This document shows, in pieces, positions 34,059-37,632 of a stretch of DNA of 64,000 nt. The notes beneath the pieces are model-generated. The model was not told the DNA's origin and did no database searches. It saw only the letters and a program-made list of their open reading frames with translations. This DNA comes from an uncultured Calothrix sp. (lineage in GTDB: Bacteria > Cyanobacteriota > Cyanobacteriia > Cyanobacteriales > Nostocaceae), in assembly GCA_937973965.1 (NCBI GenBank), contig CALJJQ010000039.1:79979-143978 (forward strand), read 5' to 3'. How positions within the stretch are numbered: position 1 is the first letter of the stretch; each line of letters begins with the position of its first letter. Made by a program: the position numbers and the translations under genes.

Positions 34059-34820
34059 TTATTTTTGAAATAAGAGAGCGAGAATGATGACAAAACTGAT
34101 GGAAAGGATGAGTAACCAAATTTTCAGGAAATTCTGTTTTTGAATTTGTGTATCTAGTTTCGTTTCTAGACGTTCAATTGCTAAATAGGCATTTTGGATA
34201 TTTTGGTGATTATTTGCATAGTCCTGTTGGATTTTTTCTAATCCTTGCTGACTTCCGATTTGGGTGAAGATACGTTCCAGATTTTGGAGGATTTCTTGGG
34301 ATTTAGTATTTGTCTGTGATATTTGTTGAATTTGTGCTTGTAGCTGAATTTGGTCTTGATTGATTTTTGCTTCTATCTGTTTGATTTCCTCCAGGTGTTG
34401 GGGTAGTCTTTGGTTAAGTGTAGGAATTTGTTGTTCAAAGTGTTCTAATTGGGTTTGGGTGATTGCTAAACTGGAACGAATATTAATTAATTCTTGGTTT
34501 AATTGGGAGATATGATTTTCATAGGTTTTAATTTGGTTAAGGTGTAATTCCACATCGTCATGGAATTCGTGAGCGATATTTACATTAGTTTGAAATTCCG
34601 ATTGTAAATTTTGAATATCTCTTGCAGTGGATTTCACCTCCTGGTATATCTGTAATAATTCTGATTTCAAACTAGTTAGCCTTTCCGTTTCCGTATAAAC
34701 TTCTGTCTGAATTTGTTGTGCTTGAGCTAAAACCTCATTCGCAGAGTTTACCCCAGTTTCAATAGTTTGAGCTAGTTGTTCTAATTGTTGGGCAATTTCG
34801 ATATCTGTAGGTGTTTTCAT
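34059..34820 (-). CDS. Long coiled-coil protein with C-terminal membrane anchor
   Basis: A 253-residue protein almost wholly predicted as coiled coil from residue 10 to 225 (Gln/Glu/Leu-rich, for example LTSLKSELLQIYQEVKSTAR and IKQIEAKINQDQIQLQAQIQ). It ends with one hydrophobic helix (IWLLILSISFVIILALLFQ) at the extreme C-terminus. There is no signal peptide, so it is tail-anchored with a cytoplasmic rod. Such proteins can tether or space complexes; no function can be assigned. It lies between the LpxB-like gene and the toxin-helicase fusion, all on the minus strand. Confidence 0.65.
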   Translation of the reverse strand: MKTPTDIEIAQQLEQLAQTIETGVNSANEVLAQAQQIQTEVYTETERLTSLKSELLQIYQEVKSTARDIQNLQSEFQTNVNIAHEFHDDVELHLNQIKTYENHISQLNQELINIRSSLAITQTQLEHFEQQIPTLNQRLPQHLEEIKQIEAKINQDQIQLQAQIQQISQTNTKSQEILQNLERIFTQIGSQQGLEKIQQDYANNHQNIQNAYLAIERLETKLDTQIQKQNFLKIWLLILSISFVIILALLFQK

Positions 34821-35331
34821 GATGATTTATCGCTAGAAAATAGGGAATAGGGAATAGGGAGTAGTTGGTATAACCCTTACCTCGACTGTATTCATTTTTA
34901 AAAAACCTAAAACCCGACGCTAAAACCATTGCAAGATAGTTGTTTTAGTTTTTGGACTTGAGTGCAAATCTGTGACATGGAAAAAGTCTTTGCCAAAAAA
35001 CCAGGATTTTTGCCGTATCAGGAAAGTCAAGTTCTTAATTTTGGATAAAGTCGAGCTGAGAGGTTGTTTAAAAAGTCATTTTTAATACTTGAATTGTCGT
35101 TTTTGGGAGTAGGAAGAGACGCGACATATCCCATCTGTACTCTCGAAGGAAAAATCAGCTTTATAACCCCATATCCAGAGTCAGGACAATAGACAAAATA
35201 GTGATAATTAATACTTGACAAACCTCCTCTTACACATAGGCTAATCCCTAAAATTTTTAGGTCTTCGTAATAAACCCAGAATTCATAATTACGAATTACG
35301 TACGCGAAGCGTTGCCGCAGGCTATTACGAA
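34821..35331. other. Intergenic region with several repeat types
   Basis: Contains the GGGAATA tandem run at 34838-34864 and a GAGACGCGACAT element near 35107. At 35033-35056 TTCTTAATTTTGGATAAAGTCGAGCT is an inverted match to 57432-57457. The end of the region is the 47-bp repeat at 35287-35333. No gene is supported. Confidence 0.6.
34838..34864 (+). repeat. GGGAATA heptameric short tandem repeat
   Basis: The run AAATAGGGAATAGGGAATAG followed by GGAGTAG is a short tandemly repeated element of the kind known in heterocystous cyanobacteria. It lies just upstream of the coiled-coil gene. Confidence 0.85.
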
Positions 35332-35333
35332 TT
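35287..35333 (-). repeat. 47-bp dispersed repeat, copy 2 (inverted)
   Basis: An exact reverse-complement match to 22448-22494 (core ACGCGAAGCGTTGCCGCAGG). It overlaps the stop codon of the toxin-helicase gene by two bases, so the repeat may have supplied the present 3' end of that gene. Confidence 0.9.
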
Positions 35334-37632
35334 ACGAATTATTAATTCTGTCCATAAATGCTTGACAAAGTAAACTCACTAAAGGCTTCTCCGGTGAAGA
35401 GTGGGAAATAATATTATTTCCAAAAGGCAGATTTTGCTGACAATGATTACCGTAGATGAAAGCGCGTACCCTTGCAGCTTCATAGGGTAAACCTTTGCGT
35501 TCAAAATCATGGGCAATACTTTTTAAAATACTTTCAAATTCAGCTTTATCTACATCTTTAAGTGATTCTGCTTCAACAACCGCTTGCCAACTATGTCCTA
35601 ATGCACGTAATAATAAACATCTCAAGGGGATATTTTGAGTTTTGGCTAATTCTGCTTGTAAATGGTCAACTGAATGACGGGATAATCGGGAAATAGCAGC
35701 TAATTCCCATGTTGATTTTTCCATTCCCACAATACCAGCAAATTGCAAAGCCAAATAGGTATCCCAATATAAATAACCACTTTCACAACGCTTGAGCAAT
35801 CGCTGTTGAACATCGCTAGTAATTTGGTTTAAATCAGCATCACTGACAACTTCCGTAATCCACTTGATTGCATTGTCAGGAGTAACGCGATCGCATTTTT
35901 GAAAATAATCAGTACCATTGCCATTTAAACGGTCAATTTCTGCTTGGGTTGCGACTACTAATAACCGCGATCGCGCTCTTGTGAGTAGGGTATACCATTG
36001 AAAGGTTTCTTCCAGGGTTGGGGTTCCCGTTCCTGCAAATAAACAAAATGCCACACAAGCTTCAAATTCCCGACCTTTAGCTCGTTCCGGGTTTAAAATC
36101 ACTAAATTATCATGATTGGCGATGGGTTGGGTACTTAAAATTTTGACTGCTTTAGCCAAATCCCGCAATAAATAGCGACGATTTTCTTCTTTACCACATT
36201 CTCCAGCTAATTTTTCCAGAAATTTGAATGCATCCATTTGGGAATCACATACCAATAATCGCACCGTTTCGCCATTCTCAAAAGCATGAATTGGGTTAGC
36301 GGGAGTAGGTAATTCCTTACATTTATGTTGGGATGTAATTTGTTGCGCTAGTTGCCAAAATTGATTGGCAAATTCTAAAATCTGGCGAGAATTACGATAG
36401 TTACGTAATAGTTCAATTGTGTTGCGAATATGTAATTGTCCCCAGGTAAAATCCGTTGGTTGAATCCGTTGATTTAAATCTCCTAACAACCATAAAAATG
36501 TCTGATGTCCTTGTGCAGCCCATGATTTACAGACAGAAATGATTGCTTGTAACTCACTTAATAGATAGTCCTGGGCTTCATCAACTATTAATAACGTACA
36601 CTCCGAATTACTCGGATTTATATTACTTGTATTTTGCACAATTCTCGCTGCATCTAATCGAGATATTCGACAAGCTAAAGCCTTATAAAAATGTTTTTTA
36701 CTGATTTTAATTAAACTTTCCAAACGCTGACTATTCGCTTGGTACATAATATTTTTTTGCTGCTGCTGTTGATTTTCCTCCAACACAAAAGCTTGGTACA
36801 ACAACATATCACTTTTACTCACCTCACCCTCCTTGGTATATTTCATTGCTGCACGCAACGCGGCTAATTCCTGTTGAGGTGAAGCCAGTTTTTCGTGTAA
36901 ATCTGGATTAATTTTTCCTAACCATTGGGGAAAGGTTCCTAACCAAAAATTTTCATCAGCTAAAGCCGTTTTTACCTCTGCAAATTCGGAAATATCCCGT
37001 CGCAACGCTTCCGGAACAATTAACATGGTATTCCAGTTAAAAGCTCGGTGAATTTCACAAGCAAATAGGGTTGCGCACACCGTTTTCCCCGTACCCGGTG
37101 CGCTTTGAATCACCACACAGGAACTATCTTCAAACTCGTCAATGGTTGCAGTTTCCCAATGGGAACATAGTAACCGTAAGGGTTCATCTAAAACATGACG
37201 TTGATAGTGGGTCAAAATTGGTGAATACCGATAACTGCCATACACAAACCGATACCAGTCCCCTTCCTGCTCGTAATTCCACTGATAGGCAGGGTTTTCA
37301 GATAACTCCGTACCCTGGGGATTTAGTAACTCCTGAATCACTTGGGGATGGGCGCGATCGCGATCGAAGGCGTCATCATAAACACCTCCCCGTAAACCAG
37401 CTTTAATCACAATCAGCGTTTCTTCCCCTTCACGATGCCAAATCACTCGCCATCGACCCGACCGAGTTCGCAGCAAATTTTCAAACCCGCGTAACGGCTT
37501 AGTATGCCGTTCGTCACCATTACTCAAACGATGCAAAATTTGATACACACGCTGCAAGTCACCGGGAGGTAGCTTTTGGATTTCTCGAAACGCAGCCCGA
37601 ATTATCTTAATCGTCCGCATATCCACCACCAT
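35332..37632 (-). CDS. RelE/ParE-like toxin domain fused to an SF1 (UvrD-type) helicase
   Basis: A 766-residue fusion. Residues about 5-85 (IIRAAFREIQKLPPGDLQRV, then KPLRGFENLLRTRSGRWRVIW and LIVIKAGLRGGVYD) have the pattern of the RelE/ParE toxin fold. A linker leads to an SF1 helicase core: Walker A SAPGTGKTVCA (about 177-187), Walker B TLLIVDEAQDYLLSE (about 347), LGDLNQRIQ, LLRNYRNSRQILEFA, VILNPERAKGREFE and YTLLTRARSRLLVV. The last 180 residues are helical and unassigned. No antitoxin gene is seen next to it. Inference: a nucleic-acid-sensing or defence helicase in which the toxin-like fold binds or cuts RNA or DNA. Its 3' end overlaps a dispersed repeat. Confidence 0.8.
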   Translation of the reverse strand: MVVDMRTIKIIRAAFREIQKLPPGDLQRVYQILHRLSNGDERHTKPLRGFENLLRTRSGRWRVIWHREGEETLIVIKAGLRGGVYDDAFDRDRAHPQVIQELLNPQGTELSENPAYQWNYEQEGDWYRFVYGSYRYSPILTHYQRHVLDEPLRLLCSHWETATIDEFEDSSCVVIQSAPGTGKTVCATLFACEIHRAFNWNTMLIVPEALRRDISEFAEVKTALADENFWLGTFPQWLGKINPDLHEKLASPQQELAALRAAMKYTKEGEVSKSDMLLYQAFVLEENQQQQQKNIMYQANSQRLESLIKISKKHFYKALACRISRLDAARIVQNTSNINPSNSECTLLIVDEAQDYLLSELQAIISVCKSWAAQGHQTFLWLLGDLNQRIQPTDFTWGQLHIRNTIELLRNYRNSRQILEFANQFWQLAQQITSQHKCKELPTPANPIHAFENGETVRLLVCDSQMDAFKFLEKLAGECGKEENRRYLLRDLAKAVKILSTQPIANHDNLVILNPERAKGREFEACVAFCLFAGTGTPTLEETFQWYTLLTRARSRLLVVATQAEIDRLNGNGTDYFQKCDRVTPDNAIKWITEVVSDADLNQITSDVQQRLLKRCESGYLYWDTYLALQFAGIVGMEKSTWELAAISRLSRHSVDHLQAELAKTQNIPLRCLLLRALGHSWQAVVEAESLKDVDKAEFESILKSIAHDFERKGLPYEAARVRAFIYGNHCQQNLPFGNNIISHSSPEKPLVSLLCQAFMDRINNS

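Follow-up and report, generated by a model that had tools for sequence, protein, structure and literature searches.

A RelE-SF1 helicase fusion and a coiled-coil partner protein form a patchily distributed gene pair in cyanobacteria

The window analyzed here, a 64,000-nucleotide stretch of DNA from an uncultured Calothrix sp., carries on its minus strand a single open reading frame of 766 codons (gene A; positions 35332 to 37632), which encodes a 766-amino-acid fusion of an N-terminal RelE-like domain to an SF1 helicase and is present in one copy in the source genome. A previous sequence-only reading had marked out the same span, which one reading frame does fill, but made no mention of the strand. 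Downstream on the same strand, beyond an intergenic stretch of 511 bp (34821 to 35331), lies gene B (34059 to 34820), which encodes a coiled-coil protein of 253 amino acids and was recognized as a partner by its position and its co-occurrence with gene A.

The RelE domain occupies residues 1 to 90 (37363 to 37632, minus strand). A single-sequence search of the PDB with A is weak, its best relevant match being Mtb RelG (E value of 0.043). A profile of the domain built from 22 divergent homologues, with free-standing RelE proteins excluded, matches archaeal RelE (1wmi; 3e-7), RelG (3g5o; 2e-6), and E. coli RelE (9e-5), as well as Mtb RelE1, T. thermophilus RelE, and YoeB, the whole range extending from 3e-7 to 2e-4, and it retrieves no ParE from the PDB. 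The AF2 model of residues 1 to 105 (pLDDT of 83) has a RelE (BECR) fold; in Foldseek it matches T. thermophilus RelE with an E value of 1.6e-5, and its top 20 matches all belong to the RelE superfamily. Further down the match list is PDB entry 8phb, Cami1, a CARF-RelE CRISPR effector. A free-standing RelE of another cyanobacterium matches A at 8e-7 and belongs to the Pfam family ParE_toxin, which holds many RelE toxins.

Apart from the start methionine, the only residues invariant across the 22 sequences of the domain are R62, R81, and Y85, and in the profile alignment these coincide with R61, R81, and Y87 of E. coli RelE, a correspondence with a chance probability of about 1e-5 if any three of the roughly 85 columns are considered equally likely. 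Two further candidate catalytic equivalents, R55 and R57, align with K52 and K54 of the E. coli protein; most family members have R or K at these positions. RelE cuts mRNA in the ribosomal A site, and R61, R81, and Y87 are critically involved in catalysis, according to Neubauer et al. (PMC2807027), whereas ParE is without the RelE catalytic set (PMC7180214). Since A keeps this set and its profile matches no ParE, we rule out a ParE identity; the domain is RelE-like rather than ParE-like and, judged from its residues, looks catalytically intact. The fold that the sequence-only reading had proposed for the N terminus, RelE or ParE, is therefore borne out and narrowed to RelE, and the structural comparison that it had suggested as a check also returns RelE.

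The SF1 helicase core spans approximately residues 164 to 571 (35920 to 37141, minus strand) and contains a Walker A motif (GTGKT, residues 180 to 184), a Walker B motif (DEAQD, residues 351 to 355), and motifs III to VI, with the elements GDLNQR, NYRNS, KGREF, and YTLLTRAR; these motor motifs are mostly invariant. Its Pfam and NCBIfam helicase scores fall under the curated cut-offs, marking it as a divergent SF1 helicase. The profile of A matches HelD (6wvk; 1.5e-15), and the full-length AF2 model (pTM of 0.81) matches UvrD, HelD, Upf1, and SLFN11, although with low overall TM-scores of about 0.3 to 0.4, such that placement in any one branch of SF1 is tentative. By its motifs and predicted fold, then, the motor is a UvrD/HelD-like SF1 helicase, in agreement with the UvrD-type motor read earlier from the sequence. 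The helical tail noted at the same time also reappears, as a predicted all-helical domain that is conserved in the family (approximately residues 585 to 766; 35335 to 35880, minus strand), with helices at residues 585 to 765 in the AF2 model.

The B proteins have a conserved N-terminal motif, TDxEIAxxLExLxxxI. That of the window ends in a hydrophobic segment (residues 232 to 250), and a C-terminal segment of this kind (KD19 of at least 1.5) is present in 17 of 25 B proteins and missing from the other 8, so membrane anchoring, although predicted to be frequent, is not universal. No antitoxin domain matches B, which resembles no known antitoxin; its Pfam matches to eukaryotic coiled-coil families score below threshold, and we set them aside as probably compositional. 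Gene B lies directly 3' of gene A on the same strand at every examined locus with an intact A, and at several loci the stop of A and the start of B overlap (-3 or -7 nt). The earlier statement that the fusion has no antitoxin gene thus holds for antitoxins of the classical kind, but it overlooks this conserved partner immediately downstream.

The distance between the two genes is expanded in the genus of the window, amounting to 511 bp there and to 378 bp in Calothrix sp. NIES-3974 (locus L002), compared with -7 to 70 bp at most other loci. Both Calothrix gaps contain repeat-like and lineage-specific inserts. At another locus (L055:9076-9736), A and B are separated by a free-standing RelE-like toxin gene (91 amino acids) together with a small gene for a putative antitoxin.

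The pair is patchily distributed across cyanobacteria. Of 391 genomes from the same order, 31 have homologues of gene A, as do 16 of 386 genomes sampled across the phylum; the scan of genome contigs for gene A reaches only close relatives. The copy in Calothrix sp. NIES-3974 is 98% identical to that of the window, and within the family to which the window belongs, the carriers form two separated lineages in the tree, which suggests transfer or differential loss. Most copies are chromosomal, and plasmid-borne copies occur only in Synechocystis and Picosynechococcus. Searches of phage records and viral contigs found no relatives of gene A, and searches of non-cyanobacterial plasmids with three different members as queries found no full-length A. 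The genes that flank A-B are not neighbors in other genomes of the family, leaving no definable empty site. Gene A is under purifying selection in two of the pairs compared (window versus L002 and L060 versus L070), with dN/dS of about 0.1 both in the RelE part and in the remainder of the protein; in the pair L053-L064, dN/dS of A is relaxed.

Genes A and B occur together far more often than expected by chance: among the 391 genomes of the order, 31 carry A, 31 carry B, and 28 carry the two together (hypergeometric P = 4e-36), and in the phylum sample they coincide in 15 of 16 genomes each, although these counts are not wholly independent because the B profile (22 loci) derives largely from neighbors of A. 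B without A is rare, being found in 3 of 360 genomes lacking A, two of these instances weak or fragmentary. The three genomes scored as carrying A only are a distant relative (G131), in which a B scoring below the threshold lies 6 nt downstream, and two with a broken A, one in which B is decayed as well (G602) and one in which no B was found (G431). We saw no intact A without B among the loci and genomes examined.

Where the pair decays, B tends to persist. On plasmid pSYSA of Synechocystis PCC 6803 (L049:9842-12229), an in-frame TAG splits A into two annotated open reading frames while B is intact; all listed PCC 6803 records show A as two frames, and in PCC 6714 and strain B12 the gene seems to be uninterrupted. 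A is similarly split on pAQ6 of PCC 7002, fragmented in G615, and missing from G030, each time with an intact B. The orphan B of G030 (L102:5824-7801) lies beside a zinc-ribbon gene that also flanks A-B in the window and at locus L003, which is consistent with loss of A only. These four cases, with none of the reverse, amount to an asymmetry like that of toxin-antitoxin systems, but the larger target size of A, which has roughly three times the length of B, may suffice to produce it, the probability of zero reversed cases among four then being about 0.3. A toxin that is solely self-controlled, as had been proposed from the sequence, fits poorly with a partner that accompanies A throughout and outlasts it where it decays.

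The genomic surroundings differ between plasmids and chromosomes. On pSYSA, the pair lies between csx3 (slr7080) and type III-B CRISPR-Cas genes, and its gene B is, by gene order, slr7083; nothing on slr7081 or slr7082 turned up in the literature searched. On pAQ6, the pair lies in a stretch rich in toxin-antitoxin genes. In the window, the neighbors are genes for a glycosyltransferase, an LpxB-like protein, a VWA protein, ClpP, and CpeS, and PADLOC returned no match and no known defense gene among eight of them; most other chromosomal copies are likewise surrounded by ordinary genes and lack a known defense gene nearby. The survey of gene neighborhoods proposed in the sequence-only reading therefore yields no known defense gene around the window's own copy, and we reject a defense-island context as general support for this copy and for most chromosomal ones. 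Of the defensive role suggested at the same time, what stands is its plausibility by analogy with ArmD and CnuH (see below) and from the plasmid contexts.

We see about an even chance that A and B together constitute a conditional toxin system of two genes, its most likely targets being phages or mobile elements. The proposal draws on the RelE fold with its invariant R/R/Y set, the invariant motor motifs, the co-occurrence and stop/start overlaps of the two genes, the persistence of B where A is broken or lost, the dN/dS of about 0.1, the csx3 and type III-B CRISPR setting on pSYSA, the toxin-antitoxin-rich stretch of pAQ6, and the requirement for ArmD in ARMADA defense. Against it stand the ordinary chromosomal neighbors, a decay asymmetry that size alone could explain, the non-universal anchor of B, its dissimilarity to known antitoxins, and the partial non-independence of the co-occurrence counts. 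Under this scheme, A would be a RelE-type mRNA endonuclease under the joint control of its own SF1 motor and of B, and B would be a coiled-coil scaffold, often membrane-anchored, that contacts A with its conserved N-terminal helix. In the resting state, A would be inactive or sequestered on B. The trigger would be engagement of the motor with a nucleic acid or nucleoprotein that is aberrant or foreign, such as a stalled transcript, an RNA-DNA structure, or phage RNA, after which an ATP-driven rearrangement would release the RelE domain; its cutting of mRNA in the ribosomal A site would then bring translation to a halt. More tentatively, and as something possible rather than probable, we suggest a cyanobacterial immune or abortive system in which a membrane-tethered lattice of B restrains the motor-gated A, coupling the sensing of nucleic acid by the SF1 motor directly to ribosome-dependent mRNA cleavage, with B representing a new type of antitoxin.

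Other accounts of the pair place its function outside defense. A could serve in quality control, acting like Upf1 or HelD to find stalled transcription-translation complexes, where its RelE domain would cut the mRNA and free the ribosomes, while B would place A at the membrane; the system would then perform stress surveillance. The fold matches to HelD and Upf1, the profile match to HelD (6wvk), the known cleavage of mRNA by RelE in the ribosomal A site (PMC2807027), and the ordinary chromosomal neighbors all speak for this account, but a gene found in only 4 to 8% of sampled genomes, divided between two separated lineages in one family, repeatedly broken or lost, and carried on plasmids in CRISPR or toxin-antitoxin regions makes it unlikely. 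An addiction module, in which toxin A and antitoxin B would stabilize plasmids or genomic regions with no part in defense, would accord with the survival of B without A, the reverse of which was not seen, and with the plasmid copies of Synechocystis and Picosynechococcus. We consider it quite unlikely, however, given that most copies are chromosomal, that an ATP-driven toxin of 766 amino acids is unusual for simple addiction, and that B is not of the labile, DNA-binding antitoxin type.

SF1 helicases often carry targeting domains, and the RelE domain might by the same token be a docking module only, directing the helicase to, for example, the ribosomal A site without any RNase activity; the catalytic R/R/Y set is, however, strictly retained while the rest of the domain diverges, which argues against this idea, and we regard it as improbable. 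Least credible of all is that A is a misclassified component of Gabija, HelD, or ARMADA. Weak profile matches to GajB and HelD point in that direction, but the partner genes of these systems are absent from the neighborhood in the window. We rejected HelD (NF041464) on a score of 35.7 against a cut-off of 419 bits and Gabija GajB on the lack of an adjacent GajA OLD nuclease and of any PADLOC match among the eight window neighbors. Membership in ARMADA was rejected on the absence of ArmA, ArmB, and ArmC from the window neighbors and on ArmD-type N termini that the RelE profile of A does not match.

The conditional toxin reading gains its context from systems in which a RelE-like domain is already known to be joined to a motor. 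ArmD of ARMADA type II combines an N-terminal RelE-like domain with a GajB-like UvrD SF1 helicase, and deletion of any of the four arm genes, or mutation of the Walker A motif of ArmD, abolishes phage protection (preprint PMC12458937). A shares this architecture, but ArmD works with ArmA, ArmB, and ArmC, none of which lies beside A in the window; A instead ends in a helical domain and is paired with a coiled-coil protein. Two fusions that appear to be of the ArmD kind (L108:4980-7118 and L109:4983-7097) come from the cyanobacterium Pseudanabaena and from E. coli, in each case from a conjugative or mobilizable plasmid, and adjoin a DruE/YprA-like helicase gene; the RelE profile of A detected no homology to their N termini. 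A Streptomyces plasmid (L110:5001-7061) encodes the same type of N-terminal domain joined to a serine/threonine kinase in place of the helicase.

CnuH of the CoCoNuT systems is a UPF1-like SF1 helicase with a RelE/colicin D-like RTL domain, and these systems, in which coiled coils abound, are predicted to act on RNA (eLife 2024, PMC11090510). The combination of SF1 helicase, RelE-like domain, and coiled coils recalls A-B, but the domain order of CnuH differs from that of A, and CoCoNuTs also have a McrB GTPase, McrC homologues, and OB/SmpB-like domains, none of which we saw beside A-B on inspection (the McrB GTPase and McrC homologue are absent among the window neighbors, and none was apparent by eye at other loci). 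Type II toxins (RelE, RelG, and archaeal RelE) share with A the fold and the equivalents of R61, R81, and Y87; A differs in being fused to a motor and in having a coiled-coil partner rather than an RHH, HTH, or Phd antitoxin, and A-B does not have the usual layout of a small free toxin with such an antitoxin adjacent. In Cami1, as is proposed for A, the RelE domain is under the control of a second domain within one polypeptide, but that domain is a ligand-binding CARF domain, not a helicase, and we know of no coiled-coil partner for Cami1.

As for B, the Slr7083 protein of Synechocystis PCC 6803, its homologue by gene order, forms filaments in vitro, is located at the cell periphery, and appears harmful when overproduced (PMC7002697). 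That work was done without knowledge of A, which is split in PCC 6803, and A-B offers a possible partner and function for this filament-forming protein. The broken copies in the model strains PCC 6803 and PCC 7002 may explain why the pair has been overlooked; in addition, a survey of multidomain RelE-fold toxins expressly excluded proteins without an identifiable antitoxin (PMC11980606). RelE-helicase fusions have already been described, and A-B is a separate, compact two-gene variant of them. Their recurrence in separate defense settings (ArmD, CnuH, and A-B) suggests that gating of RNase toxins by a motor is a general principle, and A-B, with its two genes, is the most compact version found here, rendering the mechanism directly testable.
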